Shown here piece by piece: positions 28,342 through 46,936 of a DNA stretch of 64,000 nucleotides. The DNA is taken from NCBI RefSeq assembly GCF_023638035.1, contig NZ_JAKRVX010000003.1, positions 186,001 through 250,000 of the forward strand, in the 5' to 3' direction. Both the position numbers and the translations under genes were made by a program. Under the pieces are notes generated by a model. The model was not told the DNA's origin. It searched no databases and saw only the letters and a program-made list of their open reading frames with translations. Position 1 is the first letter of the stretch. Each line of letters begins with the position of its first letter. This DNA comes from Natronocalculus amylovorans. GTDB taxonomy: Archaea; Halobacteriota; Halobacteria; Halobacteriales; Haloferacaceae.

Positions 28342-29337
28342 ATGAAGAAGTTAATTAACGATCCGGAAGATATCGTCGATGAGATGCTCGAAGGGATGGT
28401 TTTGGCGTACCCAGATCGGCTTCGCCGCCTCGACGGGACAGAAGTGCTCGTCCGGGCAGATGGTCCGGTCGATGGCAAAGTCGGACTCGTTTCCGGTGGC
28501 GGTAGTGGTCACGAACCAACCCACGCAGGCTACATTGGTGATGGAATGCTCGATGGAGCCGCTGCAGGACAGGTATTCACCTCTCCAACCGCAGACCAGC
28601 TGAGTGAGATGGTCAAAGCCTGCGATGCAGGTGAGGGTGTTCTCAACATCGTGAAAAACTACGAAGGCGATGTGATGAACTTTGATACCGCAGCTGAGAT
28701 GGCTGCAATGGAGGATATCGAAGTTGAGCAGGTTGTTGTTGATGACGACGTTGCAGTCGAAGATTCGTTGTATACCTCCGGCCGCAGAGGTGTCTGTGGA
28801 ACGATTCTTGTTCACAAAGCAGCTGGTGCAAAAGCAGCAGCCGGCGGCGATCTTTCGGAAGTTAAAGCCGTTGCAGAGAAAGTAATTGAAAACACGGGGA
28901 CAATGGGAACTGCACTTACTTCCTGTGTCACGCCAGACAAAGGCGAACCAACATTTGATCTTGGTGAAGACGAGATCGAACTCGGTATCGGTATCCACGG
29001 CGAGCCAGGGACCGAGCGCACAGACATGATGAGTGCAGATGAGATCACAACACACCTCACCGAAAAGGTCCTTGAGGATCTTGCTCTCGATGACGGACAA
29101 GAAGTGATGACGATCGTCAACGGGATGGGTGGCACGCCACTAATGGAACTCTTTGTTGTCAACCGGAAACTCCAAGAAATTCTTGGTGAACACGGTCTCG
29201 AAACATGGGATAGCTGGGTTGGCGACTACATGACCTCGCTCGATATGATGGGCTGTTCGGTCACCGTCTGTGCGGTTGATGATGAGCTCAAAGAACTTCT
29301 TGGCGCACCAGTTGACACACCAGCGCTAAAACAGTAA
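28342..29337 (+). CDS. dhaK: Dihydroxyacetone kinase, DHA-binding subunit DhaK
   Basis: 331 residues. GSGHEPTHAGYIG near the N-terminus and GIGIHGEPGTERTD contain the conserved His that binds dihydroxyacetone covalently as a hemiaminal. DhaK with DhaL and phosphorylated DhaM makes dihydroxyacetone phosphate at the expense of phosphoenolpyruvate. First gene of dhaKLM. The convergent ptsI/ptsH pair supplies Enzyme I and HPr. Confidence 0.95.
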   Translation: MKKLINDPEDIVDEMLEGMVLAYPDRLRRLDGTEVLVRADGPVDGKVGLVSGGGSGHEPTHAGYIGDGMLDGAAAGQVFTSPTADQLSEMVKACDAGEGVLNIVKNYEGDVMNFDTAAEMAAMEDIEVEQVVVDDDVAVEDSLYTSGRRGVCGTILVHKAAGAKAAAGGDLSEVKAVAEKVIENTGTMGTALTSCVTPDKGEPTFDLGEDEIELGIGIHGEPGTERTDMMSADEITTHLTEKVLEDLALDDGQEVMTIVNGMGGTPLMELFVVNRKLQEILGEHGLETWDSWVGDYMTSLDMMGCSVTVCAVDDELKELLGAPVDTPALKQ

Positions 29338-29388
29338 CCCAGCATCGAATGCCACAACTACATTATTTATGAGGACGAAGACACAGCT

Positions 29389-30105
29389 ATGAGCGACGAG
29401 GAACAGCGGGAGGCCGTTTTGATGGCGATCGATCGTGTCGCAACGCGAATGCAAGATGAGAAGTCACATCTCACTGATCTCGACTCCGCAATTGGTGATG
29501 CTGACCACGGTGCAAACCTTGCCCGTGGGTTTACTGCCGCAGCAGAGGCAGTCGAGGGGAGCGAGGATGACGTTGATGAGATTGTAAAAAAGATTGGCGT
29601 AACACTGATTTCAAAAGTCGGTGGTGCATCCGGGCCGCTGTATGGCGGTTCGATTATGAGTGCAAGCCAAACCCTCTCAGAGGAGGGTCTCACCGCTGAG
29701 ACCTCGATCGCGTTCGCAGAGGCATATTTAGAAAAGGTCCTTGACCGTGGTGGGGCCCGTGTGGGCTCAAAAACGATGGTTGATGCACTCACACCTGCAG
29801 TGCACACCTACAAGAAATCGATCGAGGTTGATGAACTTCCACCAGTAACTGCACTTGCGAAGGCAGTTGCAGCAGCAGAGCGAGGTGTCGCATTTACCGT
29901 TCCGATTCGTGCGGAGAAGGGACGCGCATCGTTCCTTGGTTGGCGCTCAGTTGGTCATCAAGACCCCGGTGCAACGTCAACGCTCTTTATTATGCAAGAG
30001 CTGCTCGCAACCGCAGAAAAATTCACCGAGGGCGAGACCGATGTCGATGCGCTTGCGCCAAGTGAGCCTGACGTTGATCCAGATGACGACGGGGGAGACG
30101 AATGA
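29389..30105 (+). CDS. dhaL: Dihydroxyacetone kinase, ADP-binding subunit DhaL
   Basis: 238 residues. The Mg-ADP site GDADHGANLARGF lies near residues 36-48 and SKVGGASGPLYGG follows, both diagnostic. The C-terminal GWRSVGHQDPGATST is also conserved. An acidic tail ends the protein. DhaL holds ADP as a phosphoryl carrier that DhaM recharges. Overlaps dhaM by ATGA. Confidence 0.95.
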   Translation: MSDEEQREAVLMAIDRVATRMQDEKSHLTDLDSAIGDADHGANLARGFTAAAEAVEGSEDDVDEIVKKIGVTLISKVGGASGPLYGGSIMSASQTLSEEGLTAETSIAFAEAYLEKVLDRGGARVGSKTMVDALTPAVHTYKKSIEVDELPPVTALAKAVAAAERGVAFTVPIRAEKGRASFLGWRSVGHQDPGATSTLFIMQELLATAEKFTEGETDVDALAPSEPDVDPDDDGGDE

Positions 30106-30491
30106 TCGGTCTTGTTGTTGTCTCCCATAGCAGTAAAGCCGCCGAGGGAATCTGTGAGATTGCAGCACAGATGGCTGGTGGTGCAACGATCGAACCAGCT
30201 GGTGGGGATGGTGAGGGTGGTATCGGGACTTCTGCGCCGCGGATTCAAGATGCGATCGAGACTGTTGATGATGGCGATGGCGTTGTCATCCTTGTTGACC
30301 TCGGCAGTGCGGTGATGAACGCAGAGCTTGCGATCGAGATGGCAGAGACTGAGTCGGATGTTGTGATCGCTGATGCACCAGTGTTAGAGGGTGCACTTAA
30401 CGGCGCAGTTGAAGCCTCAAATACAAAAGCGACTGTCGAATCAGTGGTTGAAAAAGCCGAAGACGCACGAGAGTATCACAAAGTCAACTAA
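30102..30491 (+). CDS. dhaM: PTS-dependent dihydroxyacetone kinase phosphotransferase DhaM (EIIA-type)
   Basis: 129 residues, only the mannose-EIIA-like domain of DhaM. The phosphorylatable His9 lies in VVVSHSSKAAEGICEIA, and VVILVDLGSAVMN is the second conserved block. The longer bacterial DhaM adds HPr and EI-like domains. Here those functions are separate genes, ptsH and ptsI, immediately downstream on the opposite strand. Confidence 0.94.
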   Translation: MIGLVVVSHSSKAAEGICEIAAQMAGGATIEPAGGDGEGGIGTSAPRIQDAIETVDDGDGVVILVDLGSAVMNAELAIEMAETESDVVIADAPVLEGALNGAVEASNTKATVESVVEKAEDAREYHKVN

Positions 30492-30510: not shown

Positions 30511-32226
30511 TTATTTTTCTATTTCAAGCGCGGCCCGGACTTCCGTGTGCGTTTCACACGCGAGCACCGTCTCTGCAAGCTCTCTTGCAGCCGCTGTGTC
30601 TGTGTCTTTCACTGCTTGTTTTACCTCCGGAATCGTGACCGCACTCATACTCAGCTCAGAAAGGCCCAAGCCAATCAATAGCTCCGTAAGAGTTGGATCA
30701 CCGGCCATTTCACCGCACATTCCGACCCATGCATCATTGTTTTCTGCGGCCGTCGTTGTATGATCGATCGCTCGCAGTACTGCCGGTGCGAGTGGGTCTT
30801 GATACGAGTCCATCCGGTCGAGATCACGCTGCGCGGCAAGCACGTATTGAACCAGATCGTTCGTTCCGATGCTTAAGAAATCGACACGCTTTGCAAATGC
30901 GTTCGCGAGAAAAACAGAGCCAGGTGTTTCGATCATCACACCAAGTTCTGGAACACGCGCAGTGACTCCCTCAGCATCGAGGGCAGTCTGCACGCGTTCA
31001 ACACGATCGATCGCAGCCGCAAGCTCTTCGACGGTTGAAACGAGCGGAAACATCACCGCAATCGAGTCACCGACATCAGTCGCGGCGACACGGAGGAGTG
31101 CACGAAGCTGTGTTTCGAATAGGTCTGTGTGTTCCTCAAGTGAGAGCCGGATTCCACGTGCCCCTAAAAATCCATTCTCTTCGGGGTCGAGCGAGAGATA
31201 CGGAATCGGTTTATCCCCACCGATATCTGCGGTTCGAATAATCACATGGCCATCGTTGTTTGCACATCGATCGGCAAACTGTGAACAGACCTCGTAGTAT
31301 GCCTCGAACTGTTCATCCTCCGTTGGTGGTGCATCCCGATCGAGAAACAGAAACTCCGTTCGAAAGAGCCCAACACCGTCGGCTCCTGCTTTGACGGCGG
31401 GGGGTGCTTCGGCTGGCGTTCCAAGATTACCTGCGACCTCAATTGGGACCGAATTAGCGGTCGTTACTGATGAGTTGGTTACCGCTGCGGTTGTCTCCGC
31501 TTCGTACTGTTTGATCGCTTCCCTGTCAGGCCCAACGATGATTGTCCCTCCGTTTCCATCAACGACAACGGTCTCTCCCTCTGTAACTGTCCGAAGATCG
31601 TCACCAACACCAACAACGGCAGGAATCCCAAGCGATCGAGCGATGATCGCTGCATGCGATGTTCGGCCGCCTTTTACGGTCGCCACACCTGCAATTGATT
31701 CCGGCGAAAGCTGTGCGGTATCACTTGGGGTGAGCAAATCGGCAAACACAACACTTCCATCGGGAAGTGCCGAGAGATCAGTGCGCTCTGCACCCCTGAG
31801 AATCCGAATCAGTCGATCGCGAACATCTCGCAGATCGTCTGCTCGCTCGGCCATCATCCCATCCATCGCCGAAAACTGTTTGATCGGCCCAGCGAATGCC
31901 TCCCGAACCGCGTTCTCTGCGACCACTCCGGATTCTACAGCCGTTTTGACTGCGGATTCGATCTGTGGATCTTTGAGGAACTGTTTGTGTGCCTCAAACA
32001 CGTTCGCTTCTTCATCACCGACGCGTTCACGTGTCCGATCGCGCTCAGTTTCTACCTCTTCGATCGCAGTATTCCGAGCAGTTTCAAATCGCTCAAACTC
32101 AACAGCAGGATCATCCGAAGGCTCCTGTGCAGTGTCCGCAGAGACGGTGCTCTCACGCTCATACCAAATAACTGTCCCAACACCTGATCGCGGGGTTGCT
32201 CCAACCCCTGTGAGCTGTTTTGCCAT
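30511..32226 (-). CDS. ptsI: PTS Enzyme I (PEP-protein phosphotransferase)
   Basis: 571 residues. The phosphohistidine motif GGRTSHAAIIARSLGIPAVVG, the PEP-binding FRTEFLFLDRDAPP and IRTADIGGDKP, and the C-terminal PELGVMIETPGSV and CGEMAGDP are all intact. It takes phosphate from PEP and passes it to HPr, then DhaM. The start is 1 base downstream of the ptsH stop, so the two form one unit, convergent with dhaKLM. A long open frame on the opposite strand is a codon-bias shadow. Confidence 0.95.
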   Translation of the reverse strand: MAKQLTGVGATPRSGVGTVIWYERESTVSADTAQEPSDDPAVEFERFETARNTAIEEVETERDRTRERVGDEEANVFEAHKQFLKDPQIESAVKTAVESGVVAENAVREAFAGPIKQFSAMDGMMAERADDLRDVRDRLIRILRGAERTDLSALPDGSVVFADLLTPSDTAQLSPESIAGVATVKGGRTSHAAIIARSLGIPAVVGVGDDLRTVTEGETVVVDGNGGTIIVGPDREAIKQYEAETTAAVTNSSVTTANSVPIEVAGNLGTPAEAPPAVKAGADGVGLFRTEFLFLDRDAPPTEDEQFEAYYEVCSQFADRCANNDGHVIIRTADIGGDKPIPYLSLDPEENGFLGARGIRLSLEEHTDLFETQLRALLRVAATDVGDSIAVMFPLVSTVEELAAAIDRVERVQTALDAEGVTARVPELGVMIETPGSVFLANAFAKRVDFLSIGTNDLVQYVLAAQRDLDRMDSYQDPLAPAVLRAIDHTTTAAENNDAWVGMCGEMAGDPTLTELLIGLGLSELSMSAVTIPEVKQAVKDTDTAAARELAETVLACETHTEVRAALEIEK

Positions 32227-32555: not shown

Positions 32556-35252
32556 CTATTCGGCCTGCTGTTGTTTATACAGTGACAACTGCTGTTCAAT
32601 CTGCGCATTGAGCCGATCAAGACCTTCTTCAACACCTCGTGTCTGAATGTCATCATATGCGTTTGCGACGATCGTTCGAACCGTATCAAATGGGCCAATC
32701 CGAGCACCTTGTGTACCTGTTGTCCGATCGCTCGCCAGCAGCTGCTCGATTGCAACCTCATAACCTGGATTTGTCTCAAACCAGCCATCTGTTTCGAGCA
32801 TGTTGACTGTGTTCTTATTCACTGGTAGATAGCCTGTTTCGCGGTGCCATCGAGCCTGTTGCTCCGGCTCTGCCAACCATGAAAGGAATTCACCAGCTGC
32901 CGCTTGTTCCTCGGTTGGTGCCTCATTCGATACCCAAAGTGAGCCACCACCAACGACCACACCAGTCCGGTCACCTGCCGCAGGAAGTGCGCTGACGCCA
33001 AGAGAGAACGGAACGGAATTCCGTATCGATCCGAGCGATGAGGCTGACGCAATTAGCATCGCAGCCTGTCCGTTTATGAACGCATCCCGCGCTGCGCCAC
33101 GAGCTTCAATACCGGGATTATCGTATAAGCCATCCGCCTCAAGCGACTGCCACCATTCATACAGTTTGTAGGCTGGCTCGCTGTTGAAATACGCCGTCCT
33201 GGCAGTGCCAGCATGCCCGTTTTCTTTGTCTACAAGCGGTTGGTCTGCAGCGGCCATCCACTGTTCAACGAACCACGAGTAGTTTGCGAACGTGATCCCG
33301 CTGTCTGCGTTGGTGTTTGAGACGATCGATTCAGCGGCCGATCGTACCGCAGCAAACGTCTCTGGAGGATGTTCTGGATCTAACCCTGCGTCTGCAAATA
33401 GCGTTTCATTGTAACAAAGGACTGGCACTGAGGAATTAAATGGCAGCGAGTGCAGTTGTCCATCAGTCCGGTAATAATCAACAATTGGATCCAGATACTC
33501 TTTCGTTGCACCTGATGGCAAAAGCGCCTCAACTGGCGTGAACCGCCCGCTGTCGACTGCTTGGGCGGTTCCAATTTCGTAAAACTGTGCAAGCGTTGGC
33601 CCCGACCCGTTTTCAACCGCAGTCAACGTCATATCAAACGTATCACGATAACTGCCCTGTGAAACGGGAGTGATATCTATCTCTTCTGCCTGTGCGGAGA
33701 ACTCACGGGCGAGCGATTCAAGCAATACGCCCTTTTCGCCACCCATTGCATGCCAGAACTCAACGTTCGTCTCACTGTCCGTGGTTTGTTTTTCAGTGAG
33801 GGTAAACTCGGAGAGGCGTCGATCAAGAGCAGTTGTTCGCTCGATGAGTGTTGTAACGCTTGTTGAGACTTCAGAGACTGCGGTTGCATGGCTACCCATC
33901 GTTACCGAAACCTCTGCTGCTCGATCGGTCGTTTCTGCGGCAAGTTCATCTACATCTTCAACCATCGCGGCCGCCTCCTGTAGCGAGCTGGCTTGATCAT
34001 CTGTGGCTTCGCTTATTTCTTGGACACCAACGTTCGTCTCTTCGATCTCATCTGCAATCTCTTTGAACGTTTCTGCAGCGGTATCAACTGTCTCGACGCC
34101 TTTTTCTACTTGGTCTGCAGTCGTTTGCATCTCCGTAAGCGTCTCAGCGGCTTCTGTTTTGACAGCGTCGACTGCTTGTGTGATTTCTGTTGCGGCTTCC
34201 TCTGCGTCCTCCGCTAATGATTTGACCTCTTCTGCAACGACCGCAAACCCGGACCCTGCGTCTCCGGCGCGTGCGGCTTCGATCGACGCATTGAGCGCGA
34301 GAATGTTTGTCTGTCCTGCAACGTCGGTAATAAACGATGCGCTCTCTTCGATCGCTTCAACTCGTTCATCAAGCGTTTCGATCGATTCAAGCACTCGATC
34401 AGTTCGACTTGAGATCTCTGCCAGCTCTGTGCTTGCTTGGATTGCAGCATCTCTCCCTGCAGACCCTTTCTCAGCGACGGCTGACGATGTTGTGGCAACC
34501 TCCTCTGCGGATGAGGCAACCTCTTCGGTTGCTGCAGAGAGCTGTCTAATCTCTCCACCCAATTCCGCGATCATCTCACTTTGGTCGGTCATGTCCGTGG
34601 CGATCGAATCGACTGCAGCCGTTGCATCATGACTCGCTTGCTTGATTGAGCCGATCCGATCGCTGACACGCCCTGTCGCACCGTTAACTTGATTCCCAAA
34701 TCCAGCCACGTTCGTAACTGTCTCTTGATATGATTCAAGCAGTACATTGAGTGCCTCTACTGCGTCCGAAGCATCCTCAGTTGTATATGTTTCCTCAGCA
34801 CGCGCAGTGAGGTTCCCCTCGGCTGCAGCTTCCATCACCGCGGTTACTGCCTCAAGCGCATCCGAGGCGTCCGAATCTACTGACTGCTCCGTTAATGTAC
34901 CTTCACTTGTGGACGCATCGGCTCCAGCGATATCTTGGCCTACAGTTAACCCATCAGCCGCTTGAGTACGGTCGCCCCCCTGTCCATTTCTATCCACGTC
35001 TGGCACGTCTCTTCTTTCTACTTCAGAGCTGTTCTCTTTCTGTCCATCGTTTGTGGATGTTCGAAAAAGACCACCAAAGAATCCCGCAGCAAGGCTGGCT
35101 GTGTTGGCTACGTCGGTTCCGTAGATCAATCCGTACCCAACAGAAACAACTGCGATCGCACCAACGAAAACGATCATCGCCCGGTAGCGCTTTCCTCGCC
35201 CAACATGTCCACGAGTATGAATATACGTCTCTCGTGTCCCGGAGATATACAT
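32556..35252 (-). CDS. Chemotaxis-type transducer fused to a UgpB-like solute-binding domain
   Basis: 898 residues. A basic N-terminus and one or two hydrophobic segments (about 25-45, possibly 48-63) are followed by an acidic linker and a HAMP-like region (about 130-180). A complete MCP signalling hairpin comes next, with the tip [17 protein letters not shown] near 314-330. From about residue 496 to the end is a substrate-binding protein fold beginning [12 protein letters not shown], with [15 protein letters not shown], most like the glycerol-3-phosphate-binding UgpB family. No signal, lipobox or membrane segment separates the two halves, so the binding domain should face the cytoplasm. It sits upstream of ptsH-ptsI and near glpK. 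Confidence 0.88.
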
Positions 35253-35311: not shown

Positions 35312-36499
35312 TCATTTTTTCACGTCAGTATTTGAATATTCAGTCAATTTGTTGAAGACAATCGTGGGGAATTGAAACTCAATTTTAGATGGTGGGCGAC
35401 CGATGTCCGATTCTCGCTCTGCTTGGATGCGTTTGATAATTCCCACTTCAGCTAGCTCGTACAGGAACCGCTCAACCGTTGTCGGCGATAAATCAATACT
35501 GCGTTTCGAAATTGCACCTGTTGCTGTCCCAACGCTTGATCGGTCATCTTCCCTGAGCGCAATAAGCTCCCGGAGCACAGCACGCCGGCTCTCTGATACA
35601 GAGAGAACTTGTCCAAGTGCAACACATGGTTGTGGAACTGAGTCCATTCCTGTTTGTAAATGCTCGTCCAAAATCCGTTCTGAGCCTTCCGTTTCTGCAA
35701 CTACTGCGGCACTGAATACCGCAGCTAATGCATCATGGGCGTCTCCCGTAGCCCATGTTGCAACTGTTCGGAGCTGTTCGTGTGAGAGCGCATTCCGAAC
35801 AAGTCCATTGGAGAGTCGCGTTGTCAGGATCTCTATTAGGGCATGTGTTTGGTACCGATCGAGCTGTTTTGTGAGTAGCTGTTCCATCTCACAATCGATC
35901 ATCTCCGGTGCTCTTCGTCCAATCAATGTGTACGAAATCGACTCTTCGAAGTCTGAAAGCTGGCTTTGAAGTGTAGCGACCGATCGTCTTTTAGATTCGT
36001 CAACATGGTCGATTGCAATGACCGCTCCTGCGGTGGTTGGTTGGAGCCAGGAAGCAAGCTGATCGTAGATTGTGTCTGTCCCTATCCCATGTTTTGGAAC
36101 CTCGTTTTCGACAAGTTGGTCCAGTATTGTATGATAGAGCGAAAACTGCGTTGTTGCCTCCCGACTGTCAACATAGACAAAATCAATGGGATTTATTGAG
36201 TCGACTCGTGTCGTCGTATATATTGGCGCCGTTTGCTGTCTCCGGAGTCGTCGGAATCCACTGAACAATGCGGTTACAACCGCACTTTTACCACTTCCTT
36301 TTGGTCCCCATAAATACAGATTCTCAGGCTGCTCGCCGGTAAATGCCGGCTCGTAGACATCTAGTAGCTGTTCAAGCAACGATCCGCGGCCTGTTGGATC
36401 TGTTAGATGGTAGACTGGGCTGAGTTGGTCATATTCAAGCACTAATCGCGGGCGAGTTTCGATCTGTCTTCGCCGTGCAATTCGTTCGTCGATGTTCAT
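35312..36499 (-). CDS. Orc1/Cdc6-like AAA+ ATPase with winged helix
   Basis: 395 residues. Walker A GPKGSGKSAVV (around residue 68), Walker B-like VIAIDHVDE (around 162) and a C-terminal winged helix (SPTTVERFLYELAEVGIIKR). Similar in plan to Orc1/Cdc6 initiators but divergent. Haloarchaea carry many such paralogues, some at replication origins and some orphan or regulatory. No run of origin recognition boxes is visible nearby. It lies between the transducer and the glpK-linked permease, all on the minus strand. Confidence 0.78.
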   Translation of the reverse strand: MNIDERIARRRQIETRPRLVLEYDQLSPVYHLTDPTGRGSLLEQLLDVYEPAFTGEQPENLYLWGPKGSGKSAVVTALFSGFRRLRRQQTAPIYTTTRVDSINPIDFVYVDSREATTQFSLYHTILDQLVENEVPKHGIGTDTIYDQLASWLQPTTAGAVIAIDHVDESKRRSVATLQSQLSDFEESISYTLIGRRAPEMIDCEMEQLLTKQLDRYQTHALIEILTTRLSNGLVRNALSHEQLRTVATWATGDAHDALAAVFSAAVVAETEGSERILDEHLQTGMDSVPQPCVALGQVLSVSESRRAVLRELIALREDDRSSVGTATGAISKRSIDLSPTTVERFLYELAEVGIIKRIQAERESDIGRPPSKIEFQFPTIVFNKLTEYSNTDVKK

Positions 36500-36669: not shown

Positions 36670-37683
36670 TTATGGTGCCCCAGGTACCCACACCGCGGTG
36701 TCGAAGATTCCAACAAGTGCAAACACTGCAATGAGGAACGTCCCGAAGACAATTGCTGCTGCCGGTGGATCAACGTGTGTATCTCCATGGGCGTAGAAGA
36801 TGCGTTGGAAGAACTCACCAAAGAGTCCTGAGACGAACCCGAATACGGCTCCGACAATCACAGCCACAGTCACATCACCAAACGTTGCAAATGCTGCAAG
36901 CGCTGCGGTGCTCGCTGGTAACGTAATATGATGCGTCACTGGGATCTTCTCGACACCACAGTTCAAGAAGACAAGGCTTGCAGCGCTGATTCCGAACGCT
37001 AAGAACGGGCTGCCTGTCTCAAGTGCAATAAACGCTCCAAGTACACCAACAAAGAAACTCATCAATCCGACACCCGCCCACTCATACTGGTGTGGAAGCC
37101 ATGGTTCCACGAGCAATCGGCCAGTCCCATCCGTCTGCTCATTCTCAAACGGTTCCATATCAAGATAGCCATCACCCTCCGGCTCTCCAATGATATCATA
37201 GCCAAATGCTGCTCTGTGTGCTATTGCCGACAACACGACAGCGACCGCGATCGGATCCCACGGTAATCCAACACCTGCTGATATGGTTGTGATTACAAAC
37301 CCCAGAATCCCGAACAATCCACCGACAACAAGAACGTCTTTCTGATGTGTTCCGAATGCGTAGAGGATATTTTTCCCTTCATGATAGCCGAAATCGGTGT
37401 CGATATATCCCTTTTGTGCGGCGTATGCTGTTGCGGCCGCACCACCAGCGAAGGCGATGTGTGGACCAAAGACTGGGCCGAATGCGATCGCATCCGTAAT
37501 CATCACTGCCTCTTGTCCGCTTGCAATGCTTGCTGCTTCTCCGGCAATAACCATGAATCCCGTGAAGATGAATGCTGGAAGCGCACCCAGCGCCGCTCCA
37601 AATAGTCCGCCTGCGAATGCAGCGATCCACAGCTGCGGCTCAAAAAACGGCCCAAATTGGAGAACGACGAACTCACCAGCCAT
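36670..37683 (-). CDS. Multi-span membrane protein encoded next to glpK, candidate glycerol permease
   Basis: 337 residues with about 7-8 hydrophobic segments and a hydrophilic loop near residues 165-200 (GEPEGDGYLDMEPFENEQ). It is not an aquaporin (no NPA motifs). Haloarchaea usually carry this protein directly beside glycerol kinase, where it has been proposed as the glycerol transporter. That is inference from gene neighbourhood. It starts 2 bases after the glpK stop, so the two are translationally coupled. Confidence 0.75.
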   Translation of the reverse strand: MAGEFVVLQFGPFFEPQLWIAAFAGGLFGAALGALPAFIFTGFMVIAGEAASIASGQEAVMITDAIAFGPVFGPHIAFAGGAAATAYAAQKGYIDTDFGYHEGKNILYAFGTHQKDVLVVGGLFGILGFVITTISAGVGLPWDPIAVAVVLSAIAHRAAFGYDIIGEPEGDGYLDMEPFENEQTDGTGRLLVEPWLPHQYEWAGVGLMSFFVGVLGAFIALETGSPFLAFGISAASLVFLNCGVEKIPVTHHITLPASTAALAAFATFGDVTVAVIVGAVFGFVSGLFGEFFQRIFYAHGDTHVDPPAAAIVFGTFLIAVFALVGIFDTAVWVPGAP

Positions 37684-37685
37684 CT

Positions 37686-39221
37686 TCAGTCACCACCGCG
37701 CGCCCAATCGAGCGACCGCTTCACTGCTTCCTGCCAGCGGTCGTAGCGTGCATCCACGTCGCTTGTGTCTTTTGGTGAGAACTCCCGATCGATCTGCCAG
37801 TTGTCGCGCAACTCGTCGATCGTGTCCCAGTAGCCGACTGCGAGGCCAGCGGCGTATGCGGAGCCGAGGGCGGTTGTCTCGTCAACAACCGGTCGGGCGA
37901 TATCCGTGTTGATGATGTTCGACTGGAGTTGGCACAAGAAGTTGTTTTTGACTGCGCCACCGTCGACACGCAGCGACTGGAGGTCAATTCCGGAGTCTTC
38001 TTCCATCGCTTCGGCAACGTCGCGTGTCTGGAACGCGATCGATTCGAGGGTTGCGCGGACGATGTGTTCGCGCCGCGTGCCGCGGGTCATTCCCACGATT
38101 GTTCCGCGTGCGCGCTGATCCCAGTGTGGTGCGCCAAGACCGGCGAACGCTGGGACGAAGTAGACGCCGTCCGTGGAGTCCACACTGCGTGCGAGTTTTT
38201 CGGACTCCATTGCATCCGAGATAAGCGTCATATCTTCGAGCCATTCGATCGCAGCGCCCGTGATGAAGATCGAGCCTTCGAGGGCGTACTGGACTGGTTG
38301 GCCTGAGCGCTGGAAGCCAACGGTGGTGAGGAGGCCGTGTTCGCTCATGACGGCCTCGTCGCCGGTGTTCATGAGCATGAACGAGCCGGTTCCGTAGGTG
38401 TTTTTGGCGTCTCCGGCGTCGAAACAGGTTTGCCCGAAGAGGGCGGCTTGCTGGTCACCGAGTGCGCCCGCAACAGGTACTTCAGCACCCAAGAAGCCGT
38501 CTGCGTCGGTGCTGCCGTACGTGTCTTCGTCCGAGGATGGACGGACTTCCGGTAGCGTTGCGCGTGGTACGTTGAACTCTTCGAGAAGTTCGTCGTCCCA
38601 CTCCATGTCGTGGATGTTGAACAGCATCGTTCGCGATGCGTTCGTCACGTCAGTGATGTGGTTGCCCGTCAGATTGTAGATTACCCACGTATCGATCGTG
38701 CCGAAGAGGATTTCGCCCTCTTCAGCGCGGTCGCGGACATCTTCTGGCCGGGATCGCTGGAGTTTGATCGGGTCGGTGTTGTCCAAGAGCCACTCGGCTT
38801 TGGTTGCGGAGAAGTACGCGTCAGGCTCGAGACCGGTTTTCTGCTGAACGTCGTCTTTTTTGCCGTCTGCTTCGAGGGTCTCGATTCGGTCAGTGGTTCG
38901 GCGGTCCTGCCAGACGATCGCGTTGCCGATGGGGCTGCCGGTGTCTTTGTCCCACATGACGGTGGTTTCACGCTGATTGGTGACACCGATGGCTTCGAGC
39001 TGTTCGGCATCAATGAGGGCGTCATCGAGGGCGGTGTTGATGACGGATTTGGTGTTTTCCCAGATTTCCATTGCGTCGTGTTCGACCCAGCCCGGCTCCG
39101 GATAGATCTGTTCGTGCTTTTCATAAGCGTTTGCGATCACTTTGCCGCTGTGATCGAACACCATAAACCGTGTGCCTGTCGTACCTTGGTCGATTGCGCC
39201 GACGTATGTGTTATCTGCCAT
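37686..39221 (-). CDS. glpK: Glycerol kinase
   Basis: 511 residues of the FGGY kinase family. The phosphate-binding loop VGAIDQGTTGTRFMVFDHSG opens the protein. IGVTNQRETTVMWDKDTG, GTIDTWVIYNLTG and the C-terminal LRVDGGAVKNNFLCQLQ are conserved. It phosphorylates glycerol to glycerol 3-phosphate. Start chosen at 39221; an in-frame ATG at 39251 adds 10 residues. Its 5' two-thirds look somewhat more G+C-rich at third positions than neighbours, which may indicate recent exchange. Divergent from glpA. Confidence 0.95.
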   Translation of the reverse strand: MADNTYVGAIDQGTTGTRFMVFDHSGKVIANAYEKHEQIYPEPGWVEHDAMEIWENTKSVINTALDDALIDAEQLEAIGVTNQRETTVMWDKDTGSPIGNAIVWQDRRTTDRIETLEADGKKDDVQQKTGLEPDAYFSATKAEWLLDNTDPIKLQRSRPEDVRDRAEEGEILFGTIDTWVIYNLTGNHITDVTNASRTMLFNIHDMEWDDELLEEFNVPRATLPEVRPSSDEDTYGSTDADGFLGAEVPVAGALGDQQAALFGQTCFDAGDAKNTYGTGSFMLMNTGDEAVMSEHGLLTTVGFQRSGQPVQYALEGSIFITGAAIEWLEDMTLISDAMESEKLARSVDSTDGVYFVPAFAGLGAPHWDQRARGTIVGMTRGTRREHIVRATLESIAFQTRDVAEAMEEDSGIDLQSLRVDGGAVKNNFLCQLQSNIINTDIARPVVDETTALGSAYAAGLAVGYWDTIDELRDNWQIDREFSPKDTSDVDARYDRWQEAVKRSLDWARGGD

Positions 39222-39431
39222 TGGTAAGTCACCACTCTTGTGTGGGGCCATTCGTTCAGGAATTCTTTACTAACGCCCCCACATCAGCAGTAAATTCTAT
39301 GGACAATAGTGATAATAGTTTCTTCAATTAACACGATTTTCAGGGTTATTTTCCTACTAATCCGACAGATTCGGGCATATACCGACAGGAATCCCATATT
39401 GTTGAGTGACACTGACTATCATACATATTGG

Positions 39432-39497: not shown

Positions 39498-41249
39498 ATG
39501 ACTGACGCGCCACACGTCCTCGTAATCGGCGGTGGCTCGACCGGGTGTGGAATCGCCCGAGATCTTGCCATGCGCGGTTTAGAGGTCACCCTCGTCGAAA
39601 AGGGGAACCTTACACACGGGACAACCGGACGGATGCACGGGCTTTTACACAGCGGTGGGCGATATGCTGTGTCTGACCAAGCAAGTGCGAAAGAATGTAT
39701 TGAAGAGAACAGAGTACTCCGCGAGATCGCAAGCCACTGTGTCGAGATGACTGGTGGATTGTTCGTCCAGCGACCTGAGGATCCAGATGAGTATTTTGAA
39801 GAAAAACTGGAGGGCTGCCGTGAGTGTGGTATCCCAGCAGAAGTACTGAGCCCAGAGGAGGCCCGAGAAATGGAGCCATACCTCGCAAAGGACATCAAAC
39901 GGGCGATTAAGGTTCCGGATGGAGCGATCGACCCCTTCCGGCTCTGCGTTGCGAATGCAGCCTCAGCACAAGAACACGGTGCACGTATTGAGACCCACGC
40001 AGAGGTCATCGACGTACTTGTTGAGGATGGCGCTGTTGTTGGCGTTGAGATCAAACACGACACTGGACCGGGCAAGCGGGTTCACCGAGAGCCTGGCTCA
40101 ACTGAGAAAATTCATGCGGATCATGTTGTCAGCGCAACTGGTGCATGGGCAGGAAAAATCGGAGACATGGCTGGTGTCGACGTTGAAGTCCGTCCATCGA
40201 AAGGTGTGATGACTATCATGAACACTCGACAGGTCGACACGGTTGTAAACCGTTGCCGCCCAAAGGGTGATGCAGATATTGTCGTCCCACACGAGACAAC
40301 CTGTATTCTTGGAACGACCGATATCGAGGTTGACGATCCAGATGATTATCCGGAAGAGGAGTGGGAGGTCGATATGATGATCGACACACTCTCCGAGTTG
40401 GTTCCAATGCTTGCAAACGCTCGGACCATCCGATCGTTCTGGGGTGTTCGACCGCTGTATGAGCCGCCTGGGACGGGAACAACGGATCCAACCAACATCA
40501 CTCGCGACTTTTTCCTGCTTGATCATGAGGATCGAGATGGCCTTTCGGGAATGACTTCGATCGTTGGTGGGAAATTCACTACCTATCGAATGATGGGTGA
40601 GAAAATCTCGGATCACGTCTGCGAGAAGTTCGACATCGACGCGGAATGTCGAACTGCAGATGAGCCGCTACCTGGAAGTCATGATTTCTCCATTCTGCGA
40701 GACTACATGGATGAATTTGGACTTCGATCGCCAATTGGACGACGAAGCGTTGAGCGACTTGGCTCACGTGCAGAGGAGGTCCTCAAAACGGGCGAACCGA
40801 ATCCAGTGGTCTGTGAGTGCGAAGCAGTTACCAGAGCAGAGATTCAGGATGCGATCGACCAGTCCGGGTCTGATTTGAATGCGGTTCGAATCCGAACCCG
40901 TGCATCGATGGGTAACTGTCAGGGTGCATTCTGTTGTCACCGGATGGCACATGAGCTGTATCCAACCTACGATGAGCCGGTCGCGTATGAAGCCTTTGAC
41001 GAGCTCTTCCAAGAGCGCTGGAAAGGTGAACGGCATGCATTGTGGGGTGAACAGCTATCGCAGGCGATGTTAAAGTACAGCTTGCACTCAACAACAATGA
41101 ACGCCGATCACGATGCCGTTCGGACTGGCAGCGCGATCGACTTCTCGAAGTTTGACAGCGGACAAACAACAGCAGTTGCAGGTACTGCAGGCACGGAAAC
41201 CGCAGCAACAGATGGTGGTCTTCCACCAGCTAATGGAGGCGATCAGTAA
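39498..41249 (+). CDS. glpA: Anaerobic-type glycerol-3-phosphate dehydrogenase subunit A
   Basis: 583 residues. FAD-binding [17 protein letters not shown] at the N-terminus, then the oxidase core ([39 protein letters not shown]). A C-terminal BFD-type [2Fe-2S] domain follows, with VVCECEAVT and [11 protein letters not shown]. An acidic/Ala-rich tail ends it. It oxidises glycerol 3-phosphate to dihydroxyacetone phosphate, feeding the quinone pool through GlpB and GlpC. glpB starts at the very next base after the stop. Confidence 0.95.
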
Positions 41250-42533
41250 GTGGCGATCGAAGAGGATGTCATCGTTATCGGTGGTGGCATTGCAGGCTCA
41301 ATCGCCGCACTATCTGCAGCAGACACTGGTGCACAAGTTCGGCTCGTGACACACAAAAAGAGCACACTCCGCCACGCAAGTGGACTCATTGACGTCCTCG
41401 GTTATACGGATGGTGAGAGTGGACCGGTGCATGACCCGTTTACGTCACTTGATGGGCTTCCTGAAGAGCATCCATACTCACTTGTTGGCGAATCAGCAAT
41501 TCGTGGTGGTCTCGAGATCTTTGACACAGTAACTGACGGTGCCTACAGCGGTGCACACACAGACCAGAATGCGTTAGTAACGACCTCTGGTGGTGCAATT
41601 AAACCAACCGCACGCTATCCGACAAGTGCTGCTGCTGGTCTTGTGAGTGACGATCGATCGATGCTCATTGTTGGCTTCCGATCGCTCACTGATTTCAACG
41701 GTGAGCTCGTTGCAGACCACCTCGCGGCGGCAGGCGTTCCGTTCGAAGTTAACGGAGCAGAGATTGAGGTACCGGGTAACTACCGAGCAGATGCACGTGT
41801 AACTCGGATCGCAAACGCACTTGATCTTAACAAGGATCTATCCTACAATGGGCGTACCCTTCCCGCACGGGAAGCATTTGCAGAGGCAATTAAACCGCAT
41901 CTCGGTACGGCCGATCGTGTCGGAGTTCCAGCACTTCTCGGCGACGATCACGCAGACGATGTTCGTGCTGATCTTGAGCGCTCCCTTGGCGTTGCTGTGT
42001 TTGAAATCCCAATGGGGCCACCGAGCTATCCTGGGCTTCGGCTGGAAGACTTGCTGTTTGATGCGCTTGACGACGCAGGGGTACGGATCAGTGATGGGAA
42101 CCCGGCGGTTGGGTACGAAACCGCCGCAGATGGAGACACACTCGAGTCAATCACAATTGACCGGCGTGGAAGAGAGATTCCGTACCATGCTGAGCAGTTC
42201 ATTCTTGCAACCGGTGGGCTAGTTGGCAAAGGAATTAACTCCGATCGAAATGGCGTCTATGAACCAGTGTTTAATTGCTATGTCCCGCACTCGGACGATC
42301 GGTATCAATGGTTCAGTGAAGACGCATTTGGTGAGCATCCGTTTGCGACGTTTGGTGTTCCGATTGACGAGCACTGTCAGCCACTGACGGCCGAGGGCAA
42401 GACGGAGTTTAGCAACCTACGAGCAGCAGGCGGCGTCATTGGTGGCGTCGATCCAACGGCAGAGAAATCAAAAAGCGGCGTCTCGCTTGCGACCGGCTAT
42501 GCTGCCGGGAGAGAGGCAGGGGAGGCGATATAA
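41250..42533 (+). CDS. glpB: Glycerol-3-phosphate dehydrogenase subunit B
   Basis: 427 residues beginning with a GTG codon that directly abuts the glpA TAA. FAD/NAD-binding VIVIGGGIAGSIAALSAADTG at the N-terminus. LRHASGLIDVLGYT and the C-terminal KSGVSLATGYAAGREAG fit GlpB. It joins GlpA to the iron-sulfur subunit GlpC. The glpC ATG is 2 bases after its stop. Confidence 0.93.
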   Translation: MAIEEDVIVIGGGIAGSIAALSAADTGAQVRLVTHKKSTLRHASGLIDVLGYTDGESGPVHDPFTSLDGLPEEHPYSLVGESAIRGGLEIFDTVTDGAYSGAHTDQNALVTTSGGAIKPTARYPTSAAAGLVSDDRSMLIVGFRSLTDFNGELVADHLAAAGVPFEVNGAEIEVPGNYRADARVTRIANALDLNKDLSYNGRTLPAREAFAEAIKPHLGTADRVGVPALLGDDHADDVRADLERSLGVAVFEIPMGPPSYPGLRLEDLLFDALDDAGVRISDGNPAVGYETAADGDTLESITIDRRGREIPYHAEQFILATGGLVGKGINSDRNGVYEPVFNCYVPHSDDRYQWFSEDAFGEHPFATFGVPIDEHCQPLTAEGKTEFSNLRAAGGVIGGVDPTAEKSKSGVSLATGYAAGREAGEAI

Positions 42534-42535
42534 TC

Positions 42536-43837
42536 ATGAGCGACGCAGAATCACCAAGCAGTTTCGACCCAACAGCACAGTCTTTCGAACCAGTCAGCGT
42601 CTTTCCGGATGCAGAGGACATGGATCTCCGGCCTGGTGCAGATAATTGTTATAAATGCACCGCATGTGACACGTCATGTCCAGTAGCAGAGGTTGATGAT
42701 GAGTTTCCTGGACCGAAGTTCCAGGGACCGGAGCAGTGGCGACTCAAACGAAAATCCGATGAGGCAGTTGATGACTCGATCATGTCGTGTTCCAACTGTA
42801 TGCGCTGTGACAATGCATGCCCATCAAGCGTTCCGCTCAGCCAAATGCATAATACGGCCCGAGCGGAGTACGTTGACGAGGAGATGGACAAACTCTCCCG
42901 TGAGTATCTCCGGAACCGGACCCTTGCAAACTATCGTACGCTTGCTTCGGTCGGAAGCAAAGTACCACGGCTGACGAACTTTGTGATGGGTAACAGTATC
43001 GTGCAAAAAATCAATGAGAAAATCCTCGGCATCACTGCAGAGCGCGAGTTCCCCGACTTTGCAACGGAGACGTTCCGCCAGTGGTGGAACAAACGCGGCG
43101 GTCCAAAAGTTCGATCGGAAGAAAAACGCGTTGCATACTTCCACGGCTGCTACTCAAACTACAACACCCCTGAGGTGGGTAAGGGGATGGTTCGAGTGTT
43201 CGAATCCTTTGGCTACGAAGTTGTCGTCCCGAAACAGGGCTGTTCGGGAACGCCAATGTTCGCAAACGGAATGCTTGCTGACGCAAAACGAGAAGCGGGC
43301 ATTACTGTCGATAACTTCTCAGGGCTCATTGATGAGGGATACGACGTCATTGCATCGTGTACGTCCTGTTCAATGTCGCTAAAACAAGAATACCCGGAAC
43401 TGTTCAGCATGGACGGAATTGAGGACCTCTCTATTCACACCTACGAAGCGATGGAGTATCTGCGCATCCATGAAGATCTTGAAGGTGCGATTGCTGACGC
43501 ATCTGTTGAAGAGCAAGCGTTTGCATATCACGCACCGTGTCACGCACGAAATCAGGGGCTCGATCGACAAGCTGTCGAGCTGTTCCGCGATCTCGATGGT
43601 GTCGTCATCGAAGATGTTGGTGACTCCTGTTCTGGGATCTCCGGAACCTACGGGTGGAAAGAAGAAAAATACGAGACCTCAATGAAGATCGGTGAAGAGA
43701 TGTTCGGCCATATGGAACATTCGACCGGGAACGTTGGAATGACCGAGTGTCCAACCTGTTCGATGCAGATGGAGCACGGAACTGGATACGATATTAAACA
43801 CCCACTCCAGCTACTAGAAGAAGCACTCGTCGAATAG
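42536..43837 (+). CDS. glpC: Glycerol-3-phosphate dehydrogenase subunit C (iron-sulfur)
   Basis: 433 residues. Two [4Fe-4S] motifs CYKCTACDTSCP and CSNCMRCDNACP are at about 38-95. Two cysteine-rich CCG domains follow, seen at YFHGCYSNYN with KQGCSGTP and at YHAPCHARNQ with GDSCSGISG. It passes electrons from GlpAB to the membrane quinone pool. The last gene of glpABC. Confidence 0.94.
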   Translation: MSDAESPSSFDPTAQSFEPVSVFPDAEDMDLRPGADNCYKCTACDTSCPVAEVDDEFPGPKFQGPEQWRLKRKSDEAVDDSIMSCSNCMRCDNACPSSVPLSQMHNTARAEYVDEEMDKLSREYLRNRTLANYRTLASVGSKVPRLTNFVMGNSIVQKINEKILGITAEREFPDFATETFRQWWNKRGGPKVRSEEKRVAYFHGCYSNYNTPEVGKGMVRVFESFGYEVVVPKQGCSGTPMFANGMLADAKREAGITVDNFSGLIDEGYDVIASCTSCSMSLKQEYPELFSMDGIEDLSIHTYEAMEYLRIHEDLEGAIADASVEEQAFAYHAPCHARNQGLDRQAVELFRDLDGVVIEDVGDSCSGISGTYGWKEEKYETSMKIGEEMFGHMEHSTGNVGMTECPTCSMQMEHGTGYDIKHPLQLLEEALVE

Positions 43838-45685: not shown

Positions 45686-46936
45686 ATGACTCATACAACA
45701 ACGGCACTAATTATTGGCGGTGGTGCAACTGGAGTCGGTATCGCCCGAGATTTAGCATTGCGTGGTGTTGGTGTAACACTTGTTGAGCGTAGTGGACTTG
45801 CAGGTGGAACATCAGGGCGATCGCATGGCCTTCTGCACAGCGGTGCACGGTACGCAGAGTCGGACCCACGGGGGGCAAAAGAGTGCATCGAGGAGAATGA
45901 AATACTTCGATCGATCGCAGGCCACTGTATCAGAGACAGCGGTGGGCTCTTTGTCCAACTTGATGACGACGATCCAACATACTTCGAAGAAAAACGAGAC
46001 GCGTGCATCGAACTTGGAATTCCAGTGACTGAGCTCAGTGGCGACGATGCAAGAGTACAGGTTCCCGAACTATCTGATGATGTTGTTCGAGCGCTCGCTG
46101 TTCCTGATGGCGTCGTCTATCCATCAAGGCTTGTTTCGTTGAATGCACAGAGTGCGGTTGATGCAGGCGCAGAGATATTTATTCACAGCCCTGTTACCTC
46201 GATAACCGTCTCAGATGAGAGAATAACGGCAGTCTCTGTTGGTGGTGAACTAGACGAGACGATCGAAGCAGAGTACGTTATTAACGCAACTGGGGCATGG
46301 GCTGAACAGTGTGCTGCACTCGCAGGTGTCTCGGTTCCAATGCGACCAACAAAAGGCGTGATGGTTGCGATCCCGTACGAAGGGTTGGATCCCGTACTTA
46401 ATCGGTGTCGTCTACCTGCAGATGGCGATATTATCATCCCACACGATGATCAGGTTGTTCTTGGCACAACAAGCGTTGCTGTTGATGACCCGGACAGTTA
46501 CGCAATGGAGGACTCCGAGATTGAACAGATGTTTACCGAGTGTGCTGCGATGCTCCCATCAATCATCGGTCGTGAGGCGGTCCGCCCATACTGGGGTGTC
46601 AGACCGCTCTATGCACCAGATGAAGATAATCGTGGAACCGCTGATGCTGGTGTGGGTAATGAGCGAGGGATCTCCCGTGACTTCACGCTTATCGACCATA
46701 CTGCGGACGGTGTTTCGAACTTCGCAACGATCGTCGGTGGGAAGCTAACCACGTACAGACAGATGGCTGAGGCAGCGAGCGACTTGGCTTCCGAAAAGCT
46801 TGGCGTACCCACAGCATCCACAACTGCAACGACGCAGATGGAGGGATTAGATGACCCTTCGTATCTCGATTCACTCGTGGATCGCTATGATGCCCGATCG
46901 CCTGCGGATGCAGATATGATCAGACACACAGTGTGA
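45686..46936 (+). CDS. Second FAD-dependent glycerol-3-phosphate dehydrogenase (GlpA-like, no Fe-S domain)
   Basis: 416 residues, collinear with GlpA at 39498: GGGATGVGIARDLALRG, RSHGLLHSGARYAESD, IPHDDQVVLGTTSVAVDD, GVRPLYAPD, IVGGKLTTYRQM. It ends after the catalytic core, so the BFD [2Fe-2S] domain and tail present in GlpA are missing. No glpB or glpC homologue follows. It may hand electrons to a different acceptor or use GlpBC in trans. Confidence 0.88.
   Translation: MTHTTTALIIGGGATGVGIARDLALRGVGVTLVERSGLAGGTSGRSHGLLHSGARYAESDPRGAKECIEENEILRSIAGHCIRDSGGLFVQLDDDDPTYFEEKRDACIELGIPVTELSGDDARVQVPELSDDVVRALAVPDGVVYPSRLVSLNAQSAVDAGAEIFIHSPVTSITVSDERITAVSVGGELDETIEAEYVINATGAWAEQCAALAGVSVPMRPTKGVMVAIPYEGLDPVLNRCRLPADGDIIIPHDDQVVLGTTSVAVDDPDSYAMEDSEIEQMFTECAAMLPSIIGREAVRPYWGVRPLYAPDEDNRGTADAGVGNERGISRDFTLIDHTADGVSNFATIVGGKLTTYRQMAEAASDLASEKLGVPTASTTATTQMEGLDDPSYLDSLVDRYDARSPADADMIRHTV

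Follow-up and report, generated by a model that had tools for sequence, protein, structure and literature searches.

An MCP transducer with a C-terminal UgpB-type binding domain in haloarchaea: a candidate cytoplasmic glycerophosphate sensor

In a 64,000-nucleotide stretch of the Natronocalculus amylovorans genome (contig NZ_JAKRVX010000003.1, positions 186,001 to 250,000; referred to as the window), we found a gene whose product joins the signalling hairpin of an MCP to a UgpB-type solute-binding domain. Computation established this architecture, the cytoplasmic placement of those relatives that have no membrane segment, the single origin of the fusion, the invariance of its ligand residues, its linkage to glycerol genes and the occurrence of CheW in the fusion genomes of the family. 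Taken as a whole, we consider it moderately probable that the protein serves chemotaxis by sensing a glycerophosphate inside the cell, and we lean slightly towards glycerol 3-phosphate as the ligand. A broader history, to which we give an even chance, has the binding protein of an ABC importer, originally secreted, turned inside-out a single time in haloarchaeal evolution. Its pocket, now cytoplasmic, would inform the swimming motor about the cell's own pool of glycerophosphate, whether this stems from glycerol catabolism or even consists of the lipid precursor glycerol 1-phosphate of archaea. Features of the gene and its neighbours are collected in Table 1.

Table 1. Features of the fusion gene and its surroundings, in window coordinates
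Feature	Position	Strand	Basis
MCP-UgpB fusion gene, 898 aa	32556..35252	minus	intact ORF; Pfam and NCBIfam domains; 65 further copies
N-terminal membrane helix, residues 23-44, after basic leader	35121..35186	minus	hydropathy 2.37 over 25-43; model helix 23-44; limited to the window's clade
Weakly hydrophobic short stretch, residues 48-64, perhaps the second leg of a membrane hairpin	35061..35111	minus	helix 48-59; hydropathy 0.73-0.78
Disordered acidic linker, residues 65-121	34890..35060	minus	pLDDT <50 over residues 45-124
HAMP-like segment, residues 122-180, motif A(D/E)G-(D/N)-LT	34713..34889	minus	two helices and loop; no Pfam HAMP match
MCP four-helix-bundle hairpin, residues 181-481	33810..34712	minus	Pfam MCPsignal 269-437; helices 159-329 and 334-481
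Signalling tip, residues 312-347, CheA/CheW contact region	34212..34319	minus	about 20 invariant columns in 36 fusions
Linker from MCP helix to binding domain, 13 residues, 482-494	33771..33809	minus	modelled as a loop, with low confidence at 487-490 only; not hydrophobic
UgpB-type solute-binding domain, residues 495-897; contacts Y535, E559, S608, W660, S736, G769, Y808, R859	32562..33770	minus	PDB matches, alignment, model
Asn657 codon, at Phaeobacter UgpB Trp188 / E. coli Trp169	33282..33284	minus	pocket alignment
dhaK-dhaL-dhaM, PTS-dependent dihydroxyacetone kinase	28342..30491	plus	TIGR02363 and TIGR02364; dhaL by position and similarity in related loci
ptsI (enzyme I)	30511..32226	minus	TIGR01417, 491.9 bits
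ptsH (HPr), sole HPr found in genome	32228..32503	minus	TIGR01003
Orc1/Cdc6-like AAA+ protein, upstream of fusion	35312..36499	minus	TIGR02928, 97.7 bits, below cut-off 181
Conserved membrane protein, 337 aa, named glpX here	36670..37683	minus	no Pfam/NCBIfam match; adjoins glpK in 14 clustered loci
glpK, glycerol kinase, first of co-directional run glpK-glpX-orc-fusion-ptsH-ptsI	37686..39251	minus	TIGR01311, 718.6 bits over cut-off
glpA-glpB-glpC, glycerol 3-phosphate dehydrogenase	39498..43837	plus	ORFs; named from sequence and position; same order in related loci

The two halves of the protein were recognised independently by several methods. Pfam matched MCPsignal at residues 269-437 (E 7e-39; PF00015 score 133.9 bits against a cut-off of 34.6) and SBP_bac_8 at residues 514-829 (E 3e-38), so that the domain search proposed in the initial annotation recovered both domains, each near E 1e-38. 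The top NCBIfam match was UgpB PRK10974 (residues 483-872, E 3e-70, 237 bits, below the equivalog cut-off of 411), and the PDB sequences closest to the second half were those of E. coli UgpB (4AQ4/6X84) and Phaeobacter UgpB (9LFF). A full-length AlphaFold model was built from 36 fusions, its pTM of 0.54 giving moderate confidence in the overall arrangement. From the N-terminus it shows helix 23-44, a short helix 48-59, disorder to about residue 121 and a HAMP-like helix pair. Helix 159-329 leads through a turn into the returning helix 334-481, which a loop connects to the binding fold 495-897. Pfam and the model alike place the sensor domain C-terminal to the hairpin. The complete MCP hairpin followed by a full UgpB-like fold (about residues 496-895) that had first been described was recovered with its turn at residues 330-333 and its fold at 495-897. 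A membrane segment hidden at the junction was ruled out because the peak 19-residue hydropathy of the linker region was only 0.78 over 63 fusions, in agreement with the earlier claim that no such segment separates the two domains. An assembly or frameshift artefact as the origin of the fusion was ruled out by the 65 further copies.

The signalling half is accompanied by chemotaxis machinery. The motif of the HAMP-like segment is conserved in A1, and the genome of N. amylovorans encodes 13 MCPs together with archaellins, CheA and CheW, the last two being found in the search for che genes suggested at the outset. Pfam detected no further C-terminal domain in 8 of the other 12 MCPs of this genome. 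CheW was present in 46/46 fusion genomes of the window's family versus 135/170 of its genomes overall (35/170 lacking it); the chance of such co-occurrence is about 3e-6 when relatedness is left uncorrected, and the association is confounded by relatedness.

Next, we examined the binding domain and its pocket. Modelled alone (pLDDT 94, pTM 0.91), the domain has the fold of the UgpB of a CUT1 ABC importer (TM-score 0.92 to E. coli UgpB). The best fold matches of this model were all UgpB, followed in the fold list by 7c0x and 6r1b, and UgpB as the nearest family, as initially proposed, agrees with the NCBIfam, PDB sequence and fold matches. Wang and colleagues reported that UgpB (9LFF numbering) contacts the phosphate of glycerol 1- or 3-phosphate through Tyr64, Ser143, Ser266 and Tyr342 and the hydroxyls through Glu88, Gly303 and Arg393, with Trp188 and Trp191 forming a clamp (PMC12718374). 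The equivalents in the window's protein are Tyr535, Ser608, Ser736 and Tyr808 for the phosphate, Glu559, Gly769 and Arg859 for the hydroxyls, and Asn657 and Trp660 at the positions of Trp188 and Trp191. The fusions were aligned with two solved UgpBs, 15 free haloarchaeal UgpBs and 6 bacterial relatives; all seven polar contacts and the Trp191 equivalent were invariant in 66/66 fusions. Invariant columns thus made up 8/9 of the contact columns versus 59/381 of the columns overall (hypergeometric p ~2e-6, uncorrected for relatedness). A dead pocket was judged unlikely, as eight of the nine contact residues are invariant and pocket residues are among the best-conserved columns.

The two-tryptophan clamp of UgpB bound to glycerol 3- or 1-phosphate is incomplete in the fusions. 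The Trp188 position holds Asn in 51 and Thr in 15 of them; every one of the 15 free haloarchaeal UgpBs has Asn, and the six bacterial relatives have Leu or Asn. Judged from the state of these free haloarchaeal and bacterial forms, the tryptophan was probably lost before the fusion arose. The structural modelling and comparison with UgpB ligand residues that the initial annotation had called for returned 7/7 polar contacts and one of two clamp tryptophans, and the pocket appears to be kept for a glycerophosphate, although which one is not readable from sequence. Tyr658 and Arg718 are also invariant in the fusions and are replaced by His and Trp, respectively, in 15/15 free haloarchaeal UgpBs; these two positions may reflect a switch to another ligand or partner.

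The distribution of the fusion was established in related genomes. It occurs in 46/170 genomes of the window's family (two copies being cut by contig ends, and one split gene being counted in); other copies belong to families f4 and f7 within the same order, and the 66 copies in total span three or more families of one order of archaea. None was seen outside the order in 247 genomes sampled from the phylum. A search of genome contigs returned only free binding domains, in Bacillota and Chloroflexi, and a plasmid search only free UgpBs among the haloarchaeal matches listed. In a quick IQ-TREE analysis of the binding domains (SH-aLRT support only), the 66 fused domains formed one clade with support 100, their nearest relatives being free haloarchaeal UgpBs; chance juxtaposition of MCP and UgpB was ruled out by this single clade. 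The free forms open with an RR motif and GLAGC-type lipobox leaders. These are absent from the fusions, in which the UgpB domain comes after the MCP with no export signal ahead of it. The simplest history would be that an importer protein, until then secreted, lost its signal and was joined to a transducer as its tail, all in a single event. No other UgpB was found in the window's own genome, which means that the fused domain does not duplicate one from a working importer of that genome. In one genome, the fusion (L075) is split into two frames about 1.1 kb apart, with the break near residue 162 of the SBP domain, as if by an inserted element, and this copy is likely dead. A second MCP adjoining some fusions of genus g9 was considered as a second fusion and rejected, being an ordinary HAMP-MCP.

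The gene neighbourhood points to glycerol metabolism. The minus-strand run that contains the fusion has gaps of about 2 to 170 bases and is flanked on either side by dhaKLM and glpABC on the plus strand. Profile matches (the family-profile check of neighbours covered glpK, ptsI, ptsH, dhaK and dhaM), open reading frames and related loci bear out the original placement of the gene between dhaKLM/ptsHI and glpK/glpABC. No partner permease or ATPase gene was found beside the fusion, the neighbours being glp, pts, dha and orc genes. The search of other haloarchaeal genomes that had been recommended yielded the 65 further fusions and placed 20 of the 66 loci inside glycerol clusters. These 20 are spread over four distinct clades and show two or more gene orders; the tree needs four changes of the cluster label. 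The window's arrangement is the same or nearly so in ten related loci; in family f4, the order is glpABC pointing away, then fusion-glpK-glpX-orc, with the fusion directly upstream of glpK. By chance, glpK would be expected within 10 kb in about 0.6% of cases for a single glpK. Mere co-occurrence of the fusion and glpK in a genome gives weak support, because glpK is present in 143/170 family genomes. Against a role tied to glycerol, another 38 scored fusion loci are unlinked to glycerol genes, most of those in genus g22 lying between rlmE and a dihydrofolate reductase gene recognised from its sequence. At loci L036-L040 of genus g14, the fusion is followed by ptsH and then by a HAD phosphatase gene; ptsI and dhaKLM were not found there within the stretch examined.

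The initial annotation placed both domains in the cytoplasm and missed a membrane segment of the window's copy, its N-terminal helix (Table 1). Cytoplasmic placement is clearest for the relatives without a membrane segment, and for the window's copy we infer it from descent and from the preserved MCP tip. Outside the helix-bearing clade (the window's copy, L032-L038 and L040), 50/51 fusions scored lacked a pre-hairpin hydrophobic segment of at least 1.4. The lone exception (L066, hydropathy 1.5) has its segment in a stretch possibly upstream of the true start. As most copies are without any membrane segment or signal, the cytoplasmic placement of both domains in these relatives is well supported. 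The absence of a membrane segment that marks cytoplasmic chemoreceptors with C-terminal sensors is accordingly seen in the relatives outside the window's clade and not in the window's copy. Its helix does not lie between the MCP and the SBP domain, and so it bears on topology and does not overturn the observation of the fusion. Under the positive-inside rule, a single N-in helix would leave the rest of the protein outside, and cytoplasmic domains require a membrane hairpin of two legs. The members of the clade share another hydrophobic segment, weaker than the first, and a GFFGLF-like motif followed by R/K recurs among them. This is consistent with such a hairpin, both of its ends facing the cytoplasm; in the window's copy the second leg is short. 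One strong hydrophobic helix behind a basic N-terminus also has the look of a signal anchor, by which the window's protein would be exported and its MCP part reduced to an extracellular stalk for the binding protein. We regard this as very improbable given that the MCP tip is kept, that the second segment with its basic residues recurs, and that the helix, absent outside the clade, needs one change on the binding-domain tree, within a clade whose members are otherwise cytoplasmic.

For an internal glycerophosphate sensor, the following course of events is proposed. Glycerol would enter the cell and be converted to sn-glycerol 3-phosphate by the product of glpK in the same gene run. The cytoplasmic UgpB domain would bind this compound in its inter-lobe cleft, and the lobes would close. 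Strain would then pass along the 13-residue loop and reach the returning MCP helix at its end. The resulting change in hairpin packing would alter CheA activity and archaellum switching, leading to taxis towards glycerol via its metabolism. As the UgpB domain hangs at the input end of the coiled coil, the same end as the HAMP-like segment, closure should alter hairpin packing; that lobe closure does the coupling is presumed, as is the sign of the response.

The same device might read another internal ligand. Archaea make both glycerol 1-phosphate and glycerol 3-phosphate, and glycerol 1-phosphate, the backbone of archaeal lipids, is made in the cytoplasm. As a ligand, it would couple membrane synthesis to movement. 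Phaeobacter UgpB binds it in the same pocket, through contacts that are invariant in the fusions, and UgpB does not separate it from glycerol 3-phosphate (PMC12718374; 9LFF). No sequence feature favours either enantiomer, and the genomic linkage indicates glycerol catabolism; we consider glycerol 1-phosphate a rather unlikely ligand. A glycerophosphodiester or another product of lipid turnover deserves somewhat more weight, though it too is improbable. The M. tuberculosis UgpB has Leu205 at the Trp188 position and binds glycerophosphocholine, not glycerol 3-phosphate (PMC7034087); this position has likewise lost its tryptophan in the fusions, and bacterial relatives have Leu or Asn there. Moreover, the phosphate-binding Tyr and Ser residues are common to binders of glycerophosphocholine and dinucleotides (PMC12718374; 7c0x, 6r1b). 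However, the hydroxyl contacts to the free glycerol end are retained, and the linked genes are glpK, glpABC and dhaKLM rather than genes of lipid turnover. Alternatively, the domain may have ceased to bind a small molecule and may instead be a module on which an enzyme of glycerol metabolism or of the PTS docks. The PTS communicates with chemotaxis in enteric bacteria, and ptsH and ptsI adjoin the fusion in the window. Many fusion genomes have no pts genes nearby, however, and the pocket residues are among the best-conserved positions, making docking highly unlikely.

Haloarchaeal taxis that uses an importer-type binding protein, as in the fusion, is represented by BasB/BasT and CosB/CosT of Halobacterium. 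In contrast to the fused domain, BasB and CosB are separate external lipoproteins that dock on the membrane transducers BasT and CosT. The fusion shares with the solved UgpBs (4AQ4, 9LFF) the fold, all phosphate and hydroxyl contacts and one clamp tryptophan; it differs from them in lacking a signal peptide or lipobox, in being cytoplasmic and MCP-fused, in the replacement of the first clamp tryptophan and in having no adjoining importer genes. Closer on the tree are the free haloarchaeal UgpB lipoproteins, of which the aligned forms share the Trp-to-Asn change. Unlike the fusion, they have leaders that predict secretion and work with an importer, and they differ at Tyr658 and Arg718; on Halobacterium salinarum pHS3, for example, the free UgpB gene OE_RS12540 lies beside two permease genes and an ATPase gene.

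Among the ligand-binding domains recorded in a survey of archaeal chemoreceptors is SBP_bac, which together with PilJ, HBM and 4HB makes up about 9% of the known ones; the survey also defines cytoplasmic class V chemoreceptors, some with a C-terminal domain (PMC9680633). In the main-text passages of this survey that bear on the subject, the fusion protein, its ligand and a link to glycerol genes are not described (PMC9680633). The statement in the initial annotation that known receptors place a binding domain outside, before the membrane span, has to be corrected on this basis, C-terminal cytoplasmic sensors being already recognised and SBP_bac already listed there. As in class V, the hairpin of the fusion comes first and the sensor after it, in the cytoplasm; the difference lies in the sensor, a binding protein of the ABC-importer type whose pocket is conserved, and, in the window's copy, in the added membrane helix. 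Chemoreceptors for phosphorylated C3 compounds, the same ligand class, are known from plant-associated bacteria (PacP) and use an sCache_PC3 domain (PMC12395807), whose fold is unrelated to that of UgpB, whereas the fused domain is of the SBP_bac_8/UgpB type. With C-terminal sensors and SBP_bac already on record in archaeal chemoreceptors, the fused cytoplasmic form of UgpB is a variant.

Many salt-loving archaea thus carry an inside-placed nutrient-binding tail, probably to steer swimming by the phosphorylated glycerol that they make. Glycerol is a chief carbon source in salterns. To our knowledge, no sensor for glycerol in haloarchaeal taxis has been identified, and none came up in the searchable literature, where an earlier mention may exist; the fusion gene provides a named candidate in at least 66 genomes. 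It bears on whether metabolism-dependent taxis can use direct cytoplasmic binding of a pathway intermediate rather than redox or energy state and, if the proposal is true, would be a direct metabolite sensor for such taxis. It also shows that an importer binding protein can be reused across the membrane with its ligand contacts kept.

Other genes of the cluster merit mention. The membrane protein named glpX here is a candidate haloarchaeal glycerol channel. The Orc1/Cdc6-like gene lies inside the glpK-glpX block in several clades, and its constant company with glycerol genes suggests that the product is a regulator, not an origin protein. A second GlpA-like oxidase gene (45686-46936, plus strand) lies near the first glpABC cluster.
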